From Ischnura elegans (Eukaryota; Arthropoda; Insecta; Odonata; Coenagrionidae), in NCBI RefSeq assembly GCF_921293095.1, contig NC_060248.1:79119243-79183242 (forward strand): a stretch of DNA of 64,000 bases, written 5' to 3'. The notes beneath the pieces are model-generated. The model did not search any database and was not told the origin of the DNA. It saw only the letters and a list, made by a program, of their open reading frames with translations. Below are positions 1 through 57,222 of the stretch, one piece after another (the stretch's first letter is position 1; each line of letters begins with the position of its first letter). Position numbers and translations under genes: made by a program.

Positions 1-139
1 TGCTGCAAGTTTGAAAAAGCGTAACTAGGAGGTTTGATTCAAGCTTGCCGCAAGCTTGCAGGCTTGTCATGACAAGCTTGCTGCAAACTTGCAACTTTGT
101 CATGACAAGCTTGCAGCAAGTTTAGCATGCTATCTGGGG
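1..139 (-). repeat. Internally repetitive palindrome-array element (cut by window edge)
   Basis: The stretch is a patchwork of short palindromic words, CAAGCTTG and TTGTCATGACAA, spaced by variants of GCAGCAAG. On the minus strand it opens with CCCCAGATAGCATGC (139 to 125), which resembles the CCCACATAGCACA end of the elements at 31022 and 4913. I infer it is a truncated member of the same family with a different core word. No coding potential is seen. Confidence 0.5.
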
Positions 140-874
140 TACAACTTACAATCATAGAGCTCGCTATGATGAAAAATACTATATATTCACCGATTTTGAG
201 ACTTAATTAGCCCATTCAAGTGGCACAGGTGACTTTTCTCACTGCTATTCGTTGATATACTAGAAAAATAAACTTCACACACAGCTTTGATCTTGATAGC
301 TTGATTGTGATATGTCATACCCACGGTGAACAACGGAGGATAACACGCCACTGTCATTTTCATAACTGTCCATTTATCGATAGCGTAATAGCACTGTTTA
401 CAATTCAATCACGATGGAAATCTGAAAATACAACTCTTGGCCGATGTTTTTCAACCTTGTCAAACTTAACTGTCATAGTGCATTACAACCACTGCACTGT
501 TATTTCCAGCAGTAGGTTAACGAGAGTTGTCACGATGAAAATAACACTATTTTGGCACAAAAGATGTTTTAGTAAAAATCGAAAATCTCCAAGCATAGCG
601 AACTAAGTTGTATTCTCTTGGTGTTCACCTTATAATACAAGCACAAGCAGTCCTTAACGACGAATTTTCCAGTACCTACGAAGAAATGGATGAAATTATT
701 GACTGTCAAAGCATAGCGGGCATTAGAAAATATCAAAATTGTTCTAATTACACAAATGGATGAGGTGACGTCGATAACATCAACTTACAATTAACGTATC
801 CACCTCCAACGGCCGTGGCTCATTGTCAGACTGCTACAACGATGCTACTGACTTCTTGGTTTAACCACTGTTCC
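140..874. other. No supported feature
   Basis: AT-rich single-copy-looking DNA. The open frames here (187-408 minus, 301-606 plus) are short, have no recognisable domain and no splice context, so I regard them as chance. Confidence 0.5.
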
Positions 875-924
875 AGTTTATATTTTATGCGCTTACTCAT
901 GAGTAAGCGCATAAAATATAAACT
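875..924. repeat. 50-bp perfect palindrome
   Basis: Each base from 875 to 899 is complementary to its partner counted back from 924, with no loop (centre CATG). It could extrude as a 25-bp cruciform. No target duplication or transposon end is evident. Confidence 0.9.
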
Positions 925-1177
925 ATTATAAATAAAGATATTAATATTGTAAATAATACAAAATTTGAGGGCTTCTGAGCCTCTATCGTCGGATATTTTG
1001 CTTTACATTGGAAATAACCAACACGTATCACAAACGAAGCTCTCACAACTGCTCGCAACTCATAAACAATCAAAACAATACACTAACGTGGTCTGCAGAC
1101 GACCAACTTGCGACCAACTGTGTTACCATCTCCGGCACACGGCTCGTTAGCTTAGGCAATTAAGGCATTGTTAGAAT

Positions 1178-1480
1178 ACGTCGCGTATATTTATGGTCTA
1201 CAGGTAACTTCCATCATTTAAGTTACCTGTAGACTAGAAATATCCCAAATGCATACGCCTTCAATTTTTCGTGTATTATACGCCGTGTATATTTATAATT
1301 AGCTGTTTCAGGCGTAACTTTATGAAATCTACTTGACATGATGAAAATACATGGCATGATATTTGTGTGGAATAACTAATGTTTTCTTTACTTTTCATCA
1401 CGCGTATATTTTTGGTCTACAGCCTTACATCGGTTAAGTTACCTGTAGACTTGAAATATCCCAATAGGGAAATTGCATAC
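1178..1480. repeat. Hairpin-unit repeat, copy A
   Basis: Two units (about 1183-1249 and 1401-1471) share GCGTATATTT(A/T)TGGTCTAC, then a word related to AAGTTACCTGTAGAC, then GAAATATCCCAA. In the first unit GTCTACAGGTAACTT and AAGTTACCTGTAGAC pair as a 15-bp hairpin. The sequence between the units is also found in copy B at 4190-4585. I infer these are end or subterminal repeats of a DNA transposon. Confidence 0.7.
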
Positions 1481-1719
1481 TTTTTATAAACAGTATGCTG
1501 ATATACTACAGTAAACACTTAGTACCGCAATATACTTTTTTCCGCTTAAAATTCAGTTTATACACTAGAAAATGACTCCCAAAAGTCTCCCGAGTTTCGC
1601 GGGCTAAAAAATACCGCCCCCACTAATCTTTGGCCGTGACGTCATAGTTCAGTAGGAGTCCAAGATCCAAGCCCAGTAACTGCAGGTTTGGAAGAGCCAC
1701 GTTGCGTTTAAAGGAGAAC

Positions 1720-1878
1720 ATGGGTGAAGTAAGGAAAAATTGCAAGTGGTGCATCGTTCCTCTGTGCAATAACACCCCAGAAAACATTTTCGTCTGAATT
1801 CCCACGGAGAAAATTAGAAGAAAAGCCTCGATGCATGCCGTCTGTCGGGATGAGCGTTACGGGAAATTAGGAGTATAA
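1720..1878 (+). pseudogene. THAP zinc-finger domain fragment with an in-frame stop
   Basis: From ATG at 1720 the frame reads 25 codons including KNCKWCIVPLCNNTPEN, then TGA at 1795-1797, then continues in the same frame with PTEKIRRK and MHAVCRDE to a TAA at 1876-1878. The pattern C-x3-C followed by N, a basic P-T-E-K-x-R block and x-x-x-CRDE fits the first half of a THAP DNA-binding domain (C2CH zinc finger), where a Trp or another residue normally stands at the stop. The second half with the closing Cys-His pair is absent or lost. It lies between the hairpin-repeat blocks at 1178 and 4190, which suggests transposase origin. A degraded host THAP exon is the alternative. Confidence 0.5.
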
Positions 1879-2147
1879 TAAACGAAATGATAAACCCGTG
1901 TGCTATGTGAGCGAAGATAACTTTAATATAAATAATATTTCCATATTTCATTGACTGAATAACTTGAAACTGAGATTTTTCGATCATTCGGCCGTCGTAG
2001 AATAAAAACTCAACTTCACAACAAAAATCGAGATAGGTGTTTCTCGATGGTTACGATGGACTCAAATTATTTACGGCACTTGTTCAATTTCAGTCATGGA
2101 AGGACATAGAAAATTCCATATTGTTTAAAATCAAGGGAGGAAATATG

Positions 2148-2177
2148 AAAATATAGAGCAACGTTGCTCTATATTTT
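2148..2177. repeat. 30-bp perfect palindrome
   Basis: A loopless palindrome centred on AACGTT (centre between 2162 and 2163), within otherwise AT-rich DNA of the THAP-element region. Confidence 0.85.
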
Positions 2178-2719
2178 AATATTTTGTACGTACGTTGATC
2201 CTCATGCATTCGAGTGCCAGCCAAGAAGACAGCGTTTTCTTCTACTGTCGGCGTCAAAATGATGCGCCGCTGTACTTTGCAAATTTATATCCTGGCTTCA
2301 CTACATGCTATAATAATGAACTATACGTCATTTTATCCTAAATTCTGATTTATTTTATTACAAAAAAATTGAAAAATGTAGACACGGTCAGTGCAATAAA
2401 TGACTCTGCGCACCGAAAAATTAGCCGTTTTGTCAACTTCATGAACTTTGCAACTGAACCTAAGGAAAACTACTACGTGTACAGCATTCATCTTCCACAT
2501 TAATTTACACTCATCAGTGCGGATTAATAAAATGGCTTTTGGGTATTTTTCGAACTTATATTTTGTTATAAATTAATGAAAATATTTAAACATTATCTTG
2601 TCCCATAGTTTACCCCGAAAAATAAAGAAAGTTGTAGATGGAAAAAGAATGGAATCCAGAGGTGGTCACAAAAATGAATCGCAGCATTCTTTGATTTTAT
2701 TCTACGCCGTTGCTTGCTT

Positions 2720-2781
2720 TTCAAAAAAAAAGTTGAGTCACAAGAGGAATATACCTCTTGTGACTCAACTTTTTTTTTGAA
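2720..2781. repeat. 28-bp perfect hairpin with 6-base loop
   Basis: Arms 2720-2747 and 2754-2781 are exact reverse complements, including a run of nine A opposite nine T. The loop is AATATA. It includes GTGACTCA, an AP-1-like word, on both arms. It may be a recent inverted duplication or a very small foldback element. Confidence 0.85.
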
Positions 2782-4189
2782 CATATGTTCCGCGGCCTTT
2801 GATTTGGAAACTATGGAGATAAGAATGGACATGTGTGGATCAGCAATTTCCATTCAGTTGGTTGTCAGGATAAACCAAGGATCCATTTAAAGGTTGTCAG
2901 GCCATCGTATAAAGATAGGACTGATGTGCACCACAGGGGAAATGGTGTGTTTGAGGGAAAGTCAAACCCAAAGTTGCCCAAAGAATGTGCAGTTCTATGT
3001 TGCTCTTTCCCCAGTTAAAACCAAATAGAAATTGGATTGGGATGATATTTTCACCACGGGTTCCAGTGATAGTGAGAGTGCAGGTGATCACGGTCATCGT
3101 CGAAAGTCATCCCTCTAGGATTTCCGATACGGAATTTTTAAGTGACAACCGATCGCAATGACGATGAGCTCGCCTTTAGAGAAGGTTTCAGATATATCGT
3201 GAGAAAAGCTCCCAAAATGTATTAAAGACTCTGTTTGGAAAACATGCACATTTTAATGCTAATTTAGGAAGTGTTTCATTTCAAAAGTAACTTATGAACA
3301 CCTGAAGACGTTGTGTTTATTATATTGATCGAAGTGCGATTGACCGATTCTTTCTGCAGAATAGGAAGTGGCTTCGGGGTTTTTAGTCACAAGATGGTAG
3401 ATTGTGTTGGAAGTTCGTCTATATTATCGCTACTAAATTGAAAAATTAATAGTCTGGCCTCCTCAGAGCTTCCTGTCGCCCTCCAGACAAGGTATTTTTA
3501 AGTTGAAAGTATCATCGACAGCTTCGAGGTGGAAATAAGTTCACCATAAGACTCTTCCGGACTGCCAAAAGAATACACATTTCACATGAGTATACGCTTT
3601 CGCCAATATTATACGCAAGTCTCACTTTGTTATGAACTATAAAACATTACAGATGCTCATCAGCTATCTTTCCATTTCTCGGCATCGACTTTCCGAGCCG
3701 ACGAAGTCTACAGTTTCACTAAAATACCCTGTTATCGTGATGGAATCAGTAACAGGAAGCTTGCTAGGATCAGCCTAAGAATAACCATATGCCTTCATCT
3801 TTACGCAATCTATCGCTTTCAATGGATGAGAAATAGATCAAATAATAGCCCTGAAGTCACAATGAACAACTGCGATACGTCTGCACTTCAATAAATGAAT
3901 CATAACCACGCCGTCGCATGTATAAGTATGCAACCTATACTATGGCCGTGCCGCCGTCTCTCCTCGTACTGAACTATGACGTCACTTTTCTACCAGCCAA
4001 TCATCGGGCGTTTTCGCTTCTCACTTGCATTTGAAAATTCTCGTGAACTTTGATGCATTAAATATCGTAAACCACGTCATAAAATAATAAAAAAAACTTT
4101 CACCGAGGTATGCAAACATATATTTTTATATAATTTTGGGGCTATTGATTATATCTGAAATATATGCAAGTTCCCTATTGCGGTAGTAG

Positions 4190-4585
4190 TACATGGCGTA
4201 TATTTTTGGTCTACAGCCTTCCATCGGTTAAGTTACCTGTAGACTAGATATATCCCAAATGTATACGCCTTCAATTTTTCGTGTATTATTTATCGCGTAT
4301 AATTATAATTAGCTGTTTCAGGCGTAACTTTATGGAATCTACCTGTCATGATGAATATACATGACATGATATTTATGTGAAATAACTAATGTTTTCTTTA
4401 CTTTTCATCACGCGTATATTTTTGGTCTACAGCCTTACATCGGTTAAGTTACCAGTAGACTTGAAATATCCCAATTGCGGTAGCAGTACATCGCGTATAT
4501 TTATGGTCTACTGGTAACTTCCATCAGTTAAGTTACCTGTAGACTAGAAATATCCCAAATGTATACGTCTACAATTTTTCGTGTG
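4190..4585. repeat. Hairpin-unit repeat, copy B
   Basis: Three units (about 4196-4258, 4411-4473, 4491-4560) carry the same GCGTATATTT-TGGTCTAC / AAGTTACC(T/A)GTAGAC / GAAATATCCCAA pattern as copy A. The spacer about 4275-4410 also aligns with copy A (for example AGCTGTTTCAGGCGTAACTT), so the whole block was duplicated rather than the units alone. Confidence 0.7.
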
Positions 4586-4742
4586 CTCTCAGGGAAGTAT
4601 TCTGGCTTCAGAAACGAGAGAGTTTTTTTTCTTTCTCCCCTCTCCTATACTCCCTACTCGGAGGAGGATCTCGAGACTTTCTCTCGGAGTTCCTCCTTGA
4701 GGAGGTGAGTGTTTTAAGAGGAAACCAAAACTCCGAAACCCT

Positions 4743-4913
4743 GCATAATGGGACACTAGCTGGACGTCCGCTGGACATCCAAGATAGGACAGTGTGCGGA
4801 CGGATGGCCAGGACAGCCGGCGGATGTCCTCTGGCTGTCCTGAAAATCCGCGGACACTGAGAGGACGCGACGGACGCGCAGCGGACGTCCTCTGGCAACG
4901 ATGTGCTGTGTGG
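4743..4913 (-). repeat. Internally repetitive element, GGACGTCC type
   Basis: The body is built from variants of GGACGTCC and GGATGTCC with short spacers, far more GC-rich than its surroundings. On the minus strand it begins CCCACACAGCACA (4913 to 4901) and ends about GTCCCATTATG near 4743, close to the ends of the element at 31022-31220. A long minus-strand open frame (4589-5029) crosses it but has no recognisable domain and is best explained by the repeat's base composition. Confidence 0.55.
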
Positions 4914-5098
4914 GATGCTCCGGACACTGCCACCTGAACCGATTCGTATTGTTGGGCTACTACTAGATGAGCAGATTTGATTCGGTCAGCGATTGTTGAG
5001 TGTTTTTGCAGTGGAGGTATCGAGTTCATAGTTACCTATCAATTTTGATTTCACTGGACATATATATGTACAAATAGAGTCCTCGCTCAAAAAAACGT

Positions 5099-5285
5099 AT
5101 GCTAGTCATCTAGTAGATTTTTATGATATCCACTAAATTGAAGACATTTTCTAGACTTCTAGTAGATATTTAAAATATCCAAGACATTGAAGATATTTTA
5201 TAGACATCTAGAAGATATTTAAGATATCCAAGACATTGAGGATATTTTCTAGATATCTAGAAGATAATTTGTGCTATTTGAGTGG
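5099..5285 (-). repeat. Internally repetitive element, AGATATCT type
   Basis: About 50-60-base tandem units are built from TCTAGAAGATAT, ATATCCAAGACATTGA and GATATTTTCTAGA. On the minus strand it starts near 5285 with CACTCAAATAGCACAAA, matching the end of the element at 31022, and its internal words (ATCTTCTAGATGTCT, AAAATATCC) also match that element. It is an AT-rich sister of the neighbouring GGACGTCC element. Confidence 0.6.
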
Positions 5286-5740
5286 CAAGGAACAAGTTTC
5301 AGCCAACTAGGGAAAAATACCTTTAAGTTATTCCAGTGACGCACAATTCAAATAAGAGCCTACCCGATGTTTTTAGGCATGAAAATATTTCGGAGTAGAG
5401 GTTCTCATTTGGTATGAAATTGTATCCTATATAAATATCATATATTTAATTATGAAACGTCCCCTGAAACTCGTATAACGCACACTTTGGTACATAATCC
5501 GGTTTATGTGAGCGAGAGCTTCCACGGTCACAGTTACCATCAGTTTATAGTAATAAGCGAAAATGAAATAAGAAATCTTAAATAATTAATCCGCGAGTAG
5601 GACCGATCACCTTTCGGGTGCTATTGAGATTCCTAGAATATCAGGTTTCAAACACCGCCATTTACGTAAAACATTTCTCATTTGTTCGATCGGTGTTTGG
5701 TTTCGTCACAAGGCGGGCACGATATTTCAGCTGCTTCAAG
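5286..5740 (+). promoter_or_regulatory. Upstream region of NOP9
   Basis: About 450 bases between the last repeat and the NOP9 start codon. The promoter and 5' UTR must lie here or a little upstream. No TATA box at a convincing distance stands out. The reading frame of exon 1 stays open back to about 5618, but the first ATG in that frame is 5741, so the upstream part is taken as untranslated leader. Confidence 0.4.
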
Positions 5741-5924
5741 ATGGATCCCTCCACAGAAAAGCGTGGTAAACGTAAACGAAAGAAGGGTTTTCTTCAGAAA
5801 GCGAAGGGTTATGCTAAGAGAGGAAATTTTGGGAGGGGAACTCATATTACTGAAGATGTGTATCAGTATTTCTTTCGTGTGTTGGAGATGTCACGTCAGA
5901 ATTTCGAGTCTGAAGAAGATAAAG
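5741..5924 (+). CDS. NOP9: NOP9 coding exon 1
   Basis: 61 codons plus one base (phase 1). It encodes the basic tail KRGKRKRKKGFLQKAKG and the start of the first helical segment (ITEDVYQYFFRVLEM). The donor is AAAG|GTAGGT. The 69-base intron that follows is the shortest in the gene. Confidence 0.9.
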
Positions 5925-8900
5925 GTAGGTCTTCTTCGTGATGTGCTAATTATCGAAAACATTGGAAGCTAAGTTATCTGTTTCCATTTTCAGAAGTGTT
6001 TGTCACTAATGCATTCGATGAGACCGTTGGACAAGAAATGTATCTTTCCTGCAACGAGCTCGTTTCCCGTGCCATAGAAACTCTTCTTCCTATGGCACCG
6101 AAGGAAGTTATTCAAAGATTCACCAAAGCTTTCAGTAAAGATTTGCGGCCATTATTTGGAGATCCCTTTGCAAGTCATGTTCTTCAAAAACTCCTGCTTG
6201 TTGTGGCAGAACAAACCAAGGTAATAACCGATTTCTGGTCTTGAATTACCTTGGCTACTTTCTTGGGGCCGTAACTGTATAATGTCCTTTATTCTAGGAT
6301 ACTATGAAGAAGAAAGGTGCGTCTTCCGGTGTGTTCGACGACTGGGTGATTCGTGTTGGACGTTTTGCGTTTAATAATCTTGAAGAGTTCGCGTGGGATA
6401 CATACGCCGTCCATGTCGTCCGAACAGTGCTTCTATGTATCAGTGGTGGAAAGGAATCTACGCATACCGCGAATAAAGCAGGCCTTTTAAATCCAAGATC
6501 TATAGAATATATGGAAAAGTGTGACTGTGAACTTCCAAAGCAGTACAATGAACTGCTACAGGATTATCATCACAAACTGATTTCGTGGCCTCAGATCGGT
6601 GGTAAGCCAATTATACGCTTTCCTCTTAGTTTAGTTTATATGAAATGCTTTAAATGTTTACGTGAAAAATAAATTACCTAAAGAATATCCCCTTTTTACG
6701 GAATTTCGTGTGAACCTTCTGCTGTTGGAGGATTGCATGTGGTTTCAATTTATATTTTTACTTTGTTGTGATGAATATTTCGAAATATTCGCGGTAGGAA
6801 TCAACAATAAAATTATTTGTGTTCTTTTTTAATGTTTCACGGCGTTAAAGCAAAAGGTATTGAGACAATCAGTCTATTTCTCTTTAAAGCTCATGAGTAT
6901 TCGTTATTTGCTTGAATCTTCTGTCTTTAAATTAATGATTTTGTCTCCATTTCTCATATTGTAAGCTCGAAGGTGATCATATAGAACTCAGTATAATCTC
7001 TAAAGCATAATAAATTACTTTGGGTTAATTGCAATTGTGGAGAGTATAAATATATCACTAGTATTGAAATTATCGTTTTCACCTTATGTTTATAGATATG
7101 GCCTTTGAAGGACTGACATCCGGTCTTCTACAATCCTTATTGTTTGCTCTCAAGAGAGCAGGAGAGACAACTTTGTGTGATGAATGCGTTGATGTGCTAA
7201 CTAAGAAGTGCTTCAAGCTGCATTCCACTGGAAAAGAAGAACTTTTTCAGTGTGATTTTTCCTTGCATCTCCTTGATGCAGCACTGGCTGTTGCATCTCC
7301 TGATTTTTACAGAAAGGTGTATGAAGATTGTTTTAAAGGGAAAGTTGTGAGACTTGCCCTTCACAAGAGAGCAAATTTCTCTGTTCAAAGGCTGTTTGGC
7401 TTCTGTCCTGACAAATTATTGGTAAGCGCTTACTCAAATTATTATCTTTTGTATAATCCCCAATTATTCTAATCTAAAATTTTCCATCATGAATGAATTT
7501 GTGCTTTTGGCATAACTTTTTGTGGAATGCACTTTTGATATCGTGAATAATTGGATATCAATTTTCCAATTTATAAGGTGACGTGGAAAAGTTTTTTTGC
7601 TGCTTACATTCAAAACTGACCTTATTTGTAGTTGTGAGCTATTTAGGTCTCCACTGCGTTTAGTTTTTAGACCTATTGGTAATGGATTTTGGAATTGCAG
7701 ATATTTTGAATTTTACCACCTCAATGGACATGAAGAAGTCTCCTTTGCTAGCATTGTTTTTATTCATTAGCTATGTAATCATTTCATCTCATTATGGAGG
7801 ATAAATTTGACCTGGTCCACTTGCAGTTAAATTTAACTAGAAATTTAACCATGGTTCATCGATGTGAGCCATTTAAATTTGACAGAAGTGGCAACCGGAT
7901 ATTTGGGCAAAAACAATTTGGATTCAGGAACTTTCTGGGCGTGATTTTCCCAAGGGAAAATACTTCCTGCAGTGTGTGCATTAATTTTACACAATCCTCT
8001 CAATCAAAAGCTTTTTAAAAACCCATAAACCTGCTTTATGGGTTTTTAAAAAGCTTTTGATTGAGAGGATTGTGTAAAATTAACCCTTTCACTGCTGTTC
8101 AATCTGCGGAAACCTTCTCCTCACATGCGGCGAAAATGTTAAAATGCGTCTCGTGGGCCCATGGAGCAGGTACTTCCAGGATGGGTGTGGTACACCCTCC
8201 GAAGGGTCACTAATCCCCGACCCTATCCTCGACGAACTCACCCTCGCAGGACCGTCTCATCGGCCCTACCAGCGGGAGCCCTACCTCCGGAAAAGTGACC
8301 GCTCTGACTGCAATTTGAAAATCAATCAATCAATCCGATCATCGAAATATGATAGTTTTCATCGCACTCCTGCCAATCAAGCAATCAAGTACGTCTTTGA
8401 ACCGTGTCTCTGCGATAAAAAATAACGATTTTGTTAACTTTGCAACAAAACGTGGCTGCGGACCACCGGAAAATGGCCATTATATCAAAGTTAACAAAAT
8501 CATTATTTTTCATCGCAGAAACACGGTTCAAAGACGTACTTTATTGCTTGATTGGCAGGAGTGCGATGAAAACAATCATATTGTGATGATCGGATTGATT
8601 GATTGATTTTCAAATTGCAGTCAGAGCGGTCACTTTTCCGGAGGTAGGGCCCCCGCTGGTAGGGCCGATGAGACGGTCTTGCGTGGGTGAGTTCGTCGAG
8701 GAAAGGGTCCTGGATTAGTGGGTCCCTTCGAAGTGCTTCGTGGAAGTGCTGACCGTATGGCAGGGAGGAAGAAAAAGTAAGTCCACCGCAGTCTGTCGTG
8801 CGGACGTACTAGGTACGTCCACAGCAGTGAAAGGGTTAATGCACACACTGCAGGAAGTATGCATAGACTGGAGGGATAGGTGACTAATTTGTAATTTGCA

Positions 8901-11900: not shown

Positions 11901-14900
11901 GATTACCTCTGTGCCATAATGGGCACTTTCTCAATCCCTCTGAGACTCAATCCCTCTGAGCCTTAATCCCTCAGAGCCTTAATCCCTCTGAGACTTCATC
12001 ACGAGGAGACGATTCGCGAGCTCCTGAGTACCAATCTCGCGAAGCGCCAGAGTACGTCGTGACTGCCTGATCCACGCGTGCCGCTGATCCTCGCGTCCTG
12101 TGAAGTGCTCACAATTTATAGTGAATTCACCAACGGTGTCGGCCTCTTTATGCCATGTGTGAACTTTAACCGCCTATTTCTCGTCAATTCATTCTCGCGA
12201 CGTGTGTGTGCGTTGCACCTCATGCCGCAGAGAGCAATTTTTTTCGGCTCTGGCTGTGTTGCACTCCCAGCTAGAGAGCTTCTCTGTTGAGAAATTGAAA
12301 TAAATTTTCCTGTTTATATATATTTCCGTGTAATTTAACTGCGTTTATCTTGTACGGTTTTTTCCACGATTCCTAAAAGAAACGTTCATACGAACTTCGT
12401 TATTACGAACCTCCTGTTTTTCGGTCCCGTGAACTTCATAATAACGAGTCTACTGTATTTAATTTTTCATTTTATGTAATTTATTTTATTTGCTATATTA
12501 TTATTAGAATATGCCTTCGATTTTAGTGGCAAACTATTGTGTGTAGTCTGAAGATACCAGGTTGATTTTGAATATAGTCCATTTCCAAAATGATATTCCC
12601 TATGTCACAAGGATCAATAGAAAGCTTGTGATTCATTATTTGTATCCATGTTCAGAAACTTGATTCAAATTTTTTCTTGGCTGAGCAGAAAGTCAATTTG
12701 GTAGCAGTTCGACACCTCTTTTTCCATTTGTCTGATTTGGCAAAACATGTTGTACACAGGAATTAAATTTCTGAGAGGAAACCAAGTTAGTTTCATAGGT
12801 GAAATTCAATGTCGTCATAGTTTGATCAAACACTATTAAATTTGTGTTGAACATCCTCCAATCTCTGTCCTCCGTTTTGGTTAAGTTTATTTAAGGTGAG
12901 GATAAGAAATTTCAGATTTGGAATTCATGAAGTTATTTGGTGTTATAACTTGGCGATGTGACATTCAGAGAATGAAGGCTTGCATGGAAGGAGTTTGTTA
13001 AAGTGGTGAATGACATTGCTTCCAGTACCTTACTCGATCAGTACCCAACCATGGGTGTGTGGCAGATGATGTAAGGATACCAACTATGGAAATTATATAG
13101 GGAGATAAAAATGCTTTTTTTATTCATTTTTAGGCTAATTTTTTTATTGCCCTCTTTTAAAGATTATTCTGGAACCTATGCTGTTTGCATTATATGTACA
13201 GTGGAACTTGGTTAGTATGTTTCTGAAGGGACCACGAAAAATGAACGTACTAACCAGGAAAACGTACTAACGAGGAAAGTAAATAATAGCAGTCGGGGTT
13301 ATTGCAATCAGTGAAAAAGTCGTCATAATTACAATTACTATCGGTAGTTCTCATAGGATCGCCTTCCTGAACTCTTTTCACATTTAAAATCAAGAAAATG
13401 AGTGCTACATTGAAAAACAATACCATGTGAATAAAAATCGCAATTTTTCATAGATTTCCGAAGACGATTCCATGATTACGGCGTCTATCTCCCGTGATTT
13501 ATCCTATATATATTTACAGAATGAGGACGAGTGAAGCTCAGACAAGCGAAGACAAGTCATTTTTCTTTCTCACAGCGTACTCGGAGAATATAACAACAAC
13601 CCGGAGTAAGTCAACTGGTTTTTTAAACATCATAAAAATTGGGCAAAATTATATTTACTTTCAAATTACGGCAACAGCCGTAGACATTCGCTTCTGGAAT
13701 GATACCATTTCGATTGTAAAATCGATCGATATATCGACTGATGACACGCAAGATTATTAGATTACGACGTAATTACAAGAAAATTTTATATTAGACAGTT
13801 GAAATTTACTTACAAAACTTGTCTAATGTCGTCTGCTTTCGTTCCTAGATCAAGTATTTTTAAGCTAAGCTTCGCGTGGAGATCCAGAGGACCGTCTGCT
13901 CCCGCAACAGTAGTCAAGTAAATACGCATGATGTCGAGTTTATGGAGCAGTACTGCTTTAGATAATGTGGGAATTGTCTAATACCGTTAAGACTCATTTC
14001 TTCATCATGATAACTCGTGCAATAGCAACAATTGCCCACTCACGAACTTTGTGCGCAGCAGTGGGCACTCCCAAGCGCTCCAAAGGCAACAGAAGGTGAG
14101 GAGCTCGGGGTGGGGAAAATTGGGGCTTCTTATTGGCTGTAGTTTTTCGTAGTCAGACATTCCCGAAAAATGGGCGCATTTTATTTTTCATCACGTCACA
14201 AGAATTCAGAAATGCATTTGGATAAATTACGGTAGAAGAAAGAGATGTGGAATTAATGGAAGAATGTTAATGGCTAATAATAATAAATTAAATCATGAAT
14301 TCAGACGTTTGCGACCCTTAAGAAGACACTAGAGAACGAATTGCGGGTCTCGTCACGGCAAGCAATTGAGCGTACTAACCAGGAAAGCGCAATTTTTTCA
14401 AACGTACTAACCAAATTCTTTTACCTGTATTTTGTTCGGATGGTACCGGGACCGAGGGAAATCGCCGTACTAAGGAGGAAAACGTACTAAGGAGGAACGT
14501 ACTAACCAAGTTCCACTGTATTTCTCACATTTTTTTTCTGTCTGTCGTTGGAAAAGTGCCAAATAATATTTGCCATGTCATGTGAAGTAATTGAGAGATA
14601 ATGCTCCATGATTTTCATCCATGCTCAGAAAATAAAAAATATGGGAGAGTGCTAAGAAATTGTTCAAAAAGCAAACATTGACTCCATAGATGTGATGCTT
14701 GATATCAAGCCAATGACCAAGAGCAAGTGGTATTTTAGTTTTAGCATATTTTTTTATAAAGTTTACAATGCCAAGAATATATCTTGGTAATGTATATGTA
14801 TGTATTTAAAATAAGTGAAATTAATCTAACAATTAATTAATTAATTTATTTAATCCAGTCTAAAAACAGCACGAGGCCAATTACAGAGGATTTTAGAAAT

Positions 14901-17900
14901 ATATCTAAAAACCTCACTAGAATCCCAAATTCTTTGCCTACCTCTTCCTCCCACTTGTTAAAATCTATTAAGTCGGCCACCACAAACCACGATCTCATCT
15001 TCACCAAAGCTGACAAAGGTTCTAGTATCGTTATCCTCAACAAAAGTGATTACCTAACGAAGTGCTATGACTTTATATCGACCAATGAGTTCGAACTGCT
15101 AAACAAAGACCCCACCCCCATTTTTCAAGATCAACTTAAATCCATAGTGAACAGATGCACTTCCTTACTCTCACCTCGAGAAAGGAGACATCTTATTAAA
15201 ATGAATCCATTGCCACCGAAAATGTACGGCTTACCCAAAACCCACAAGTCTAACGTGCCCATACGCCCTGTGGTTTCCCATTTTTCTGCTCCCTCCCACC
15301 TCCTTTCTTCAAAGCTAAATACACTCATACGGACCCTCTCGGGGTTCAAGCCTACGCACAGCATTGAAAATTCCTCTGAGCTAGCAAAACGTCTTTCAAC
15401 AATAACCCCCCCACCAAATGGAAAACTGGTATCATTTGATGTTTCCAACCTTTTTACCTCCATACCTGCCAAAGAAGCCATAGATATAACTCTAGATTGG
15501 CTCAGAAAATCATCCGTCAATGACGACTTAGTGAGTGACATCAAAAAACTATTATCAGTGTGCATGGACCAAAATTATTTTCAATTCAATCACCAGTTTT
15601 ATAGACAAAACCACAGCCTCTCTATGGGCTCTCCTCTCTCGCCTATCCTGGCTGATATCTTTATGGATAACCTGGAAAGTAAACTGTTCAGCTCTCATCA
15701 CCCTCTTTTAAAAAACTTGTGCTACTACTTTAGATATGTGGATGACATTATTTGCTTATGGACCGGTAGCAAGAGACAACTGGCCTCCTTCCTTGGGCTA
15801 CTCAATTCCCTCCACCGATCCATCAATTTTACAACTGAACTCGGAGGTGACTCAATCCACTTCCTAGATCTTACGATTTCCCTCAAAGAAGGCAAACATG
15901 ACTTCTCAATCTACCGGAAAAGTACCTTTACGGATGTACTTATCCCCGCAGACTCAAACCATCCTTACTCCCACTAGATTGCAGGCATTAACTCTATGCT
16001 AAACAGACTCCTTTGTATCCCAATGACTGCTTCAAGTTTCAACCAGGAACTTGATGTTATTAAATCGATATGTTCTAATAACGGCTATCATGATGACCTC
16101 ATCCGTAAATTACTGGCCAAAAAAACCCGAATAAGAGTATCGCCCACCCTAACCAGTTTGCTGCCGGTCCCCAAAACAGAACCCAAACGGTGGTGCAAAT
16201 TACCTTTCCTTGGCCCCCTGTCTTACAGTGTTCACAACCTCATACCCAAAGACAAATACAGAGTGTGTTTTTACTCCCCGACCTCCCTTGGTAAAGTGAT
16301 TTTTAACTCCAAGGACAAAGTGAATCCTGAAGACAAAAGTGGTGTCTATGCCCTGACATGCGACGAGTGCAACGGTGTGTACGTTGGTCAAACGGGCCGC
16401 AAGTTTAAAACTCGTGTCGATGAACACAAAAGAAGTGCTCGTTTGAAAGACTCCATTTCCCATTTTTCTAAACACCTGTCCGAATCCGGCCACAACAGTG
16501 ATTTTAAAATTAAAATTTTACATGTACATGACAAAAGTGTAAAACTGGATATTTTAGAAATTTTAGAAATCACCAAATGCACTCTTGCACGTAACATCGA
16601 AATTTTTAATGATATGACTGTATTCAAATGTTCTAACTTTTTATCTACTGTTTTAAAATCTGACTTCTTCCTTGACAATCCTTCCTCCTCCCCTTCTCAT
16701 TAACCTCGTTACCACCTGACTTTTATCTGCCTGCCCCCACCCCACCTCCCCAAACTTTTATACTTTTTGTTTTGAACCTCCTATCCAACCAACAATGCCC
16801 AACCAACAATGCTCAATGCTCCTCCTCATTTAGTTCCCCCCCCTCCTCCTTCCCTCACACTATTGTTGGATAAATAAGGCTGGATGTTGTATGCTTTTCT
16901 CAGTTAGTCTTGATAATGACAGTGTAAACGTTGAAACTAGTAGACTGAAAAAATATAAGGTTGTGGAATATTACTGTGTTTTTATTTCACCATGAATATC
17001 TCATCGTTCCACCAAGTAACGCCTAAATCTGTTGATTTTATTAACCTCTAAATCCTTCTGAGAGGTGACTGAAGGAAAGTGATGTCCAGATAATCAGTAA
17101 TTTTTACTCAGGATAGACTTGCGTAGGGCAGGGTTCCCACTCAACCGTGAAAACCTTAAAACCGTGAATAAGCCGTGAATTTTGTCTACCGTGAAAAAAC
17201 CTGGAAATATCAGTGCAACCTGGAAATAGCCGTGAATTTCGTCATAAAACCTTAGAAATCTCTCAAACTGGATTGTAGAACTACGATAGGCAGATTAAAA
17301 GAAAAATCGATGTTTCAATTATGTTTCAAGGCCGAGTCACGTGCAGATACTGTCCATGCATTTATCTGTATTCGAAGTGTTGTTTATGTGTATTCGTAGC
17401 GCAATTATTAATTGGTCCGTGTGCCATGACAGCACATTGACCTAAAGCCTGCGATTGGAAGACATTAACCCTGGCAAAAAAATCAGGCACTTGTTCACTT
17501 CCCTGCCACCCTGCTCATCCATTTTCCCACTCACACCCTTAAGCCGGACCTGAATTTTGCTAACGATAGGTGAAGTAATTAAAGGTAGCACTTTCATTGC
17601 TGCGTTTGCAGTCAAGGCATCTGTTGTGTTTATTACATTTTTAGTTAATGTGTGGCCAGTGATTGTTTCATGATCAATATTTCTGCCTAAAATGCCTTAT
17701 CTATAAACCGTGAATTTGATGACATTTAGACCGTGAAAACCTGGAAAAAACCGTGAATTTAATGATGTAGTTAGAGTGGGAACCCTGGTAGGGTGAATGG
17801 TAGGCTGGTAGACTTGGCTGGATTAATTTTCAGACTCCAAATCTCAGGCCATTGGTCTAAGTTTAGTGTTGGCTTGTAATTATTTTAGTCTTCATACAAA

Positions 17901-31021: not shown

Positions 31022-31220
31022 CCCACATAGCACAAAATATCTGCTAGATGTCTGCAAAATATCCAGAACGTCTTCAGCTAATACCTAGAAAATATATTCT
31101 AATAACTTGCAGACATCTTCAAAACATTTAGTAGATATCTCAATGTCCGCATTTCTGATATCTACAAGAAAATTGAGAAGATATTTTCTGGACATTCACA
31201 GTCAAATTGGACCCACTGGG
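31022..31220 (+). repeat. Internally repetitive element, AGATATCT type
   Basis: Begins CCCACATAGCACAAAATATC and ends about GGACCCACTGGG. The body is made of ATATCTGCTAGATGTCTGC, AAAATATCC, CTAGAAAATAT and TAGTAGATATCT words. It is the clearest-ended member of the family also found at 1-139, 4743-4913 and 5099-5285. Confidence 0.6.
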
Positions 31221-31407
31221 AAAATTCAGGATAAATGACTCGAATATATGATATGGTTTGGTGTAACTAGAGTTTATTTTTCAGCGGACAACCAGGTGGT
31301 GGAGTATGAGGTGATGGTAGTTTATCTTCTGGGGATTCTTCCTGATTATTAGAACCTGTAAATTTGTTTTCAATTGGCAATGAGTCCGTAAAATATTCGT
31401 TACTAAA

Positions 31408-56960: not shown

Positions 56961-57222
56961 CAGTGGCGCCGACTCCATGGGGCCTGAGGGGGCCCAAGCC
57001 CCCTCAAAAATTCGTTATGGGTGTAAGGAAAAAATGTGTCAGGCTTGTTGATTTTCCCCGGAGTGTCCAGATATCGAGAATCGAGTTATCAGGGTTCTAA
57101 TGTTGGTCATACGACTCTTCTAAAATGCTTAAAAAAACTTAAAACTAACTACTTATAAAATTTCCCGGGGCAAGATCACCAGTTTGGGCCCCCCCAATAT
57201 TTTTTGTAAGTCGGCATCCCTG
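56961..57222. mobile_element. hAT-type MITE with perfect 8-bp target duplication
   Basis: TAGCCACG is present directly before (56953-56960) and after (57223-57230). The ends are CAGTGGCGCCGACT and, in complement, CAGGGATGCCGACT. Inside are GGGGGCCCAAGCCCCC and a matching GGGCCCCCCC. 262 bases without a transposase; the 8-bp duplication and CAG ends fit hAT. Confidence 0.85.

Follow-up and report, generated by a model that had tools for sequence, protein, structure and literature searches.

The array-bearing segments of the window are very probably broken and nested ends of TRC-group DNA transposons, that is, of animal CACTA/EnSpm elements, in which the tip and the array behind it would have separate parts in transposition. 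The tips are conserved, and the repeated palindromes just inside the tips vary from family to family. The window is the whole stretch of 64,000 nucleotides that was analysed (C3:79119243-79183242 of a 1.72-Gb genome in 110 contigs), and a genome-wide search for copies was run in the same assembly. A first-pass annotation had described palindromic arrays and a common end in four segments of the window, and both were found at or near the places given. It had recognised no named transposon class for them; the elements fit the TRC type of CACTA/EnSpm, with CCC tips, target duplications (TSDs) of 2 bp and, in a complete element called H, an ORF related to Transposase_21. The elements are collected in Table 1.

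Table 1. Elements in and near the window (window coordinates unless a contig or locus is named).
Element	Position	Strand	Description
A	1..138	-	Element end, very likely TRC-type; tip CCCAGATAGCATGC at 138; array of CAAGCTTG words
E family, second stretch	139..1465	-	Interrupted at 139 by A
E	4172..4594	-	Fifth element end; tip CCCTGAGAGCACA at 4594; GTAGACGTCTAC-like words; inserted in B
B	4595..4914	-	Left end, cut at 4594 by E, from a non-autonomous family of 4.7 kb; tip CCCACACAGCACA at 4914; words GGACGTCC
C	5023..5282 (about)	-	Solo left end belonging to the D family; degenerate tip CTCAAATAGCACA; 49-bp units with AGATATCT words
D	31022..31357	+	Solo right end, read tip inward, of a ~1-kb family; tip CCCACATAGCACA; words AGATATCT/AGATGTCT
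G	locus L076		1750 bp; tips CCCTAGTAGCAAC / CCCTGGTAGCACC; TSD GA/GA, one copy
H	C3:79107100-79115743		8644 bp, complete, 3.5 kb upstream of the window; TSD TT/TT

With at most two mismatches, CCCACATAGCACA has four matches in the window, where shuffled sequence gives 0.88 on average, and none of 100 shuffles reaches four. One of the four matches (1899-1911) has no array, however, segment A is absent from them, and the bare core CCCNNNNAGCA occurs eight times, which we estimate to be about the number expected by chance. The window by itself therefore argues only weakly for a shared end: the proposed excess over shuffled sequence held in so far as no shuffle reached the count, but with A missing and one match arrayless it is only modestly unusual. 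Palindrome scores, compared with 300 shuffles of each segment, exceed all shuffles on both scores in A and B, on the second score only in C (first score 22, shuffle maximum 30) and on the first only in D (second score 4, tying the shuffle maximum).

The reality of the shared end is settled by the genome copies rather than by the window. Among the best-scoring matches, the copies of A, B and D end sharply at the shared CCC. For A, the best 40 of 164 candidates are near-full matches of 89-100% identity, and 32 of the 39 non-self copies among these 40 begin exactly at CCC. For B, each of the best 40 of 244 candidates is listed with 100% identity along at least 172 bp; 28 of their 39 non-self copies begin exactly at CCC and the other 11 at most three bases outside it. 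For D, the best 40 of 472 candidates include 39 non-self copies at 82-87% identity, and the flanks, printed for 30 copies, diverge outside CCCACATAGCACA, segmental duplicates excepted. The copies bear out the earlier description: the elements are mobile, their end is conserved and their palindromic words are particular to the family. Element A extends about 310 bp or more to the left, beyond the start of the window; its CCC tip is seen at one end and its array carries large tandem units. Three B copies are 97-99% identical along 2.6 kb; together with the 39 non-self copies listed as identical, this points to a possible recent spread of the B family, which makes the family a natural test case.

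In 10-kb stretches around nine D-family copies, eight contain elements, about 0.5-1.4 kb long, in which the inverted tip recurs at either end; the ninth copy (L080) is interrupted at its far end by another element. A LINE with variable 5' truncation, suggested by the fixed CCC end and the variable far ends, was considered and rejected, as the far ends carry the same inverted tip. The D-family copy in locus L075 matches the window at both of its ends: its left end corresponds to C (5280-5023, 88.5%) and its right end to D (31357-31023, 84%), and by these matches C and D are two solo broken ends of one ~1-kb family. As left and right ends of the same family, they reduce the four segments to three word families. 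The arrays of the four segments described at first pass are real, but their separateness did not hold for C and D, and a fifth end, E, had been overlooked.

Several of these ends interrupt one another, and interrupted sites could be compared with uninterrupted ones. Window E is 97.4% identical to the first 423 bp of a 2429-bp copy in locus L094. It truncates B at 4594, a site that locus L101 reads through uninterrupted, and the tip of A abuts E-family sequence that is uninterrupted in L094; each of these cases has one junction in the window. In L080, another family is nested in the D copy, and a comparison by eye with L072, where the site is unfilled, gives the duplication CA; two further bases differ beside the insertion site. 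Between the two E-family stretches of the window lie about 2.7 kb (1466-4171) that have no match to the E copy of L094, and these are perhaps another insertion.

CCC terminal inverted repeats are present at both ends in the D family, B, E, G and H. Degenerate tips were seen in window C (CTC) and in loci L016 (CCA), L017 (GCC), L022 (CTC) and L024 (CCA), and the element nested in L080 has CAC as its left tip. All eight B copies with both ends carry a 2-bp TSD (TT, TA, AA, TC, TA, AA, GC, GC); nine copies were tried, the ninth being excluded because its right end is not at the expected place. In the D family, 11 of 16 copies have a matching 2-bp TSD and five have no match. This count derives from a table of 21 rows, 11 of them flagged, from which four rows without a left tip and the segmental duplicate L010 were excluded, leaving 10 of 16; L025, whose right tip contains a deletion, was added by eye. 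None of the 21 rows was flagged for a 3-bp TSD, and a CACTA tip was not found in the family, the tips being CCC. One copy of E is flanked by AA/AA. Element G contains a 154-aa ORF (L076 3369-3830, minus strand) with a cysteine/histidine pattern that looks PHD-finger-like by eye; this ORF may be a captured coding sequence.

The two tips of element H (CCCAGATAGCACAAG) are identical at 15 of 15 bases, the first 11 of which are also those of the A tip, and arrays of TTGTATACAA/TTGTAATACAA words stand at both ends. H encodes a 716-aa ORF which in tblastn matches five Transposase_21-type ORFs of the genome at 27-31% (E 6e-40 to 2e-32); of these five, L075, L081 and L084 pass the PF02992 cut-off, and L085 and L086 are below it. 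Compared with Pfam, the H ORF itself gave no match reaching the cut-off, DUF1258 (E 2e-4) being below it. By these similarities the ORF is transposase-like and related to Transposase_21 proteins. Further open stretches follow downstream of it, with a weak match to DUF4806 (E 0.014, below the cut-off). No transposase was found within the copies of A, B or D, of which the D copies measure 0.5-1.4 kb and A was seen in part, and a full B copy of 4695 bp has no ORF of at least 150 aa and no tblastn match to six transposases. The connection of A, B and D to a transposase would run through their tip class and architecture.

Arrays also accompany transposase ORFs elsewhere in the genome. Ten Transposase_21-type ORFs were chosen from 74 matches, mostly for long open frames, and their 3' sides were scored. 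Six (L081, L084, L085, L086, L089 and L090) have arrays scoring above all 17 window controls (maximum 39); compared with the highest of 30 shorter flank controls (53), five of the ten regions exceed it and L085, at 52, does not. In L087, L088, L091 and L092 no array scored above the window controls, and faint ones are visible by eye in L087 and L091. In each of two families that encode a transposase, three copies share, by eye, a GGG right end at one position and diverge directly beyond it. The Transposase_21 ORF of L075 was considered as a source of transposase for the D family and rejected, since the D copy does not include it and the array that separates the two has a different word. The same locus contains a 480-bp array (1440-1940) of alternating palindromes, CCAGTACTGG and ACCGGCCGGT, with a period of 21 bp. 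In L092, a tandem repeat of ~100 bp (1580-2100) is located downstream of the Transposase_21-type ORF, with AAACAG/CTGTTT words inside it by eye.

Words appear to be passed on within families, each family having its own: AGATATCT in C/D, GGACGTCC in B, CAAGCTTG in A, TTGTATACAA in H, AGACGTCT in the element nested in L080 and GTAGACGTCTAC-like words in E. A GAYRTC core is common to several words (AGATATCT, GGACGTCC, AGACGTCT, GTAGACGTCTAC and GGATATCC). The L084 element has another tip than H and yet the same word, so word and tip are not always coupled. Subterminal arrays are present at both ends in the D family, B and H. The spacing of the words was determined in 12 arrays, which are partly non-independent (the D family supplies three of them, B and H two each). 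Of 119 gaps from word to word, 50 measure exactly 11 bp, and in 10 of the 12 arrays none of 300 shuffles reaches the in-phase count of the 11-bp register. The phasing fails in both H arrays, where 86 and 143 of 300 shuffles reach that count. The words were picked from the arrays themselves, which biases the counts of sites; we think that the spacings are less affected. A spectral test of the palindrome centres for a 10.5-bp period was clear (0/200 shuffles) in only 2 of 15 arrays.

We propose that the tip would be the site of cleavage and joining by the transposase, and that the palindromic words are putative sites bound by a dimer, either of the transposase itself or of an accessory protein comparable to TNPA of maize En/Spm. 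Spaced by one helical turn (11 bp), these putative sites would lie on one face of the helix. The word would differ between families because the binding protein and its word change jointly, and it would agree within a family because the copies descend from a master element. More tentatively, animal TRC elements in general might combine a fixed scaffold, consisting of palindromes 11 bp apart and a constant CCCNNNNAGCA tip, with a lineage-specific word as the changeable key, a generalisation that we regard as possible and somewhat less likely than its opposite. If it is true, the word decides which elements a given machinery mobilises, and one genome may therefore host many mutually blind families that share a cutting site.

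The first-pass annotation had explained the arrays differently: slippage, gene conversion or templated copying would rewrite each array as a unit within its copy, and the words would be homogenised and drift in concert. Words that are alike within a family and unlike between families would agree with such rewriting, as would the 49-bp tandem units of C and a copy of A in locus L119 which, by eye, differs from the window copy by one extra 11-bp unit near the tip. Homogenisation was assessed in the D family, in 27 copies (30 loci minus three near-duplicates). Identity between copies is 0.909 for words at the same position; for words at different positions it is 0.698 between copies and likewise 0.698 inside a single copy, which indicates that D arrays are inherited and not homogenised in place; the within-copy homogenisation of the core word that had been suggested was not seen in these 27 copies. 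The 39 non-self B copies, whose identity over at least 172 bp is given above, speak against rewriting as well, and we consider it very unlikely. As judged by eye from the A copy in L119, gain and loss of array units does occur, and over long times it is a possible process in the arrays.

Conceivably, too, the arrays do not serve as binding sites and consist of inert tandem or fold-back repeats gathered beside the tips. Tandem and inverted repeats near element ends are common, four of the ten transposase regions are without a clear array, and H departs from the phasing, all of which would suit inert repeats. Against this, several families have words that are palindromic, D, B and H have them at each of their two ends, and 10 of the 12 arrays keep an 11-bp register; moreover, the subterminal repeats of En/Spm are described as cis-determinants recognised by TNPA (PMC2613891, in the text accessible). 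We therefore hold inert repeats to be unlikely, if less so than rewriting. Scarcely credible, by comparison, is a separate transposon class without relation to CACTA/EnSpm, in which the CCC start and the 2-bp duplications would be coincidental: that none of the A, B and D copies was found to contain a transposase would be in keeping with it, but H shares the tip class (11 bases with A), the TSD length, the arrays and a Transposase_21-related ORF, and the tip of a Tribolium TRC element is similar to that of D. The assignment to TRC-type CACTA/EnSpm elements with subterminal arrays of putative binding sites is thus the reading that we follow below.

Known TRC elements of animals (SmTRC1 and its Tribolium and Aedes relatives) have the same CCC tips, 2-bp TSD and Transposase_21 in the available text of their description (PMC1636069). 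SmTRC1 has a 3' tandem repeat which resembles the arrays described here, and by eye the Tribolium TRC tip CCCTAGTAGCACCGAATAT agrees with that of D, CCCACATAGCACAAAATAT, at 14 of the first 19 bases (PMC1636069). In contrast, palindromic words or an 11-bp register are not mentioned in the available text of that paper, and 'palindrom' and 'subterminal' have 0 occurrences in its main text (PMC1636069). Spongebob was assigned to TRC on the basis of its CCC tip and 2-bp duplication, and Spongebob / EnSpm-4N1_HM shares with the present elements the CCC tip, the 2-bp TSD, the TRC group and the occurrence of non-autonomous copies, in three species; the Hydra tip differs (CCCAGCCAACATTGAC), and the accessible part of the source contains no description of arrays (PMC4298943).

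Plant CACTA elements have duplications of 3 bp and carry direct as well as inverted repeats in their subterminal regions, as far as the available text goes (PMC8978399). In soybean CACTA elements (Tgmt*) the tips are conserved, the subterminal motifs vary from element to element and there are TNPA-like binding proteins, according to the accessible text (PMC2613891). En/Spm and Tgmt* resemble the elements of the window in their conserved tips and in having, in the subterminal regions, direct and inverted motifs that are particular to each family and presumed targets of TNPA-like proteins, and they differ in the CACTA tip, the 3-bp TSD and motifs of 12-20 bp, compared with palindromes of 8-12 bp here (PMC2613891, same text). 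Fungal EnSpm elements are described, in the portion available, as having CAC..GTG ends and 3-bp duplications (PMC12730594). Outside Repbase and most subscription papers, and within the accessible parts of the sources, no text was found that describes palindromic arrays in the subterminal regions of animal TRC/EnSpm elements. A literature search with raw sequence returned, among the matches listed, only a 10-base term, in unrelated papers. A pattern scan of viral contigs gave 40 matching stretches, which we take as chance.

The class of these elements is ordinary; their family-specific palindromes on an 11-bp register are a neat feature that is perhaps under-described, and we found little description of subterminal arrays in animal CACTA-type elements. 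The puzzle of a conserved end with an interchangeable core is turned into a testable reading, in which the cores would be subterminal binding arrays of CACTA-type transposons. With several families, different words and a common 11-bp register, a single genome provides material on the joint change of words and binding proteins, which the soybean CACTA authors left as an open question in the text available (PMC2613891).

Other features were seen in the window alongside the transposon ends. Exons of a NOP9-like PUF-repeat gene were recognised by eye at about 5740-7472 on the plus strand (PF22493 in 7068-7472), the gene starting a few hundred bases from element C. At 14841-16703, also on the plus strand, a reverse transcriptase (RVT_1) is followed by a GIY-YIG domain, which we take to be a Penelope-like retroelement. 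The NOP9-like gene marks the DNA as eukaryotic, and the layout of the gene, the Penelope-like element and the transposons suggest an animal. Near-perfect inverted repeats with no spacer are located at 2720-2781 (31-nt arms) and 875-924 (25-nt arms). Finally, 262 bp at 56961-57222 are 89% identical to C1 sequence around a B copy and represent another dispersed repeat.
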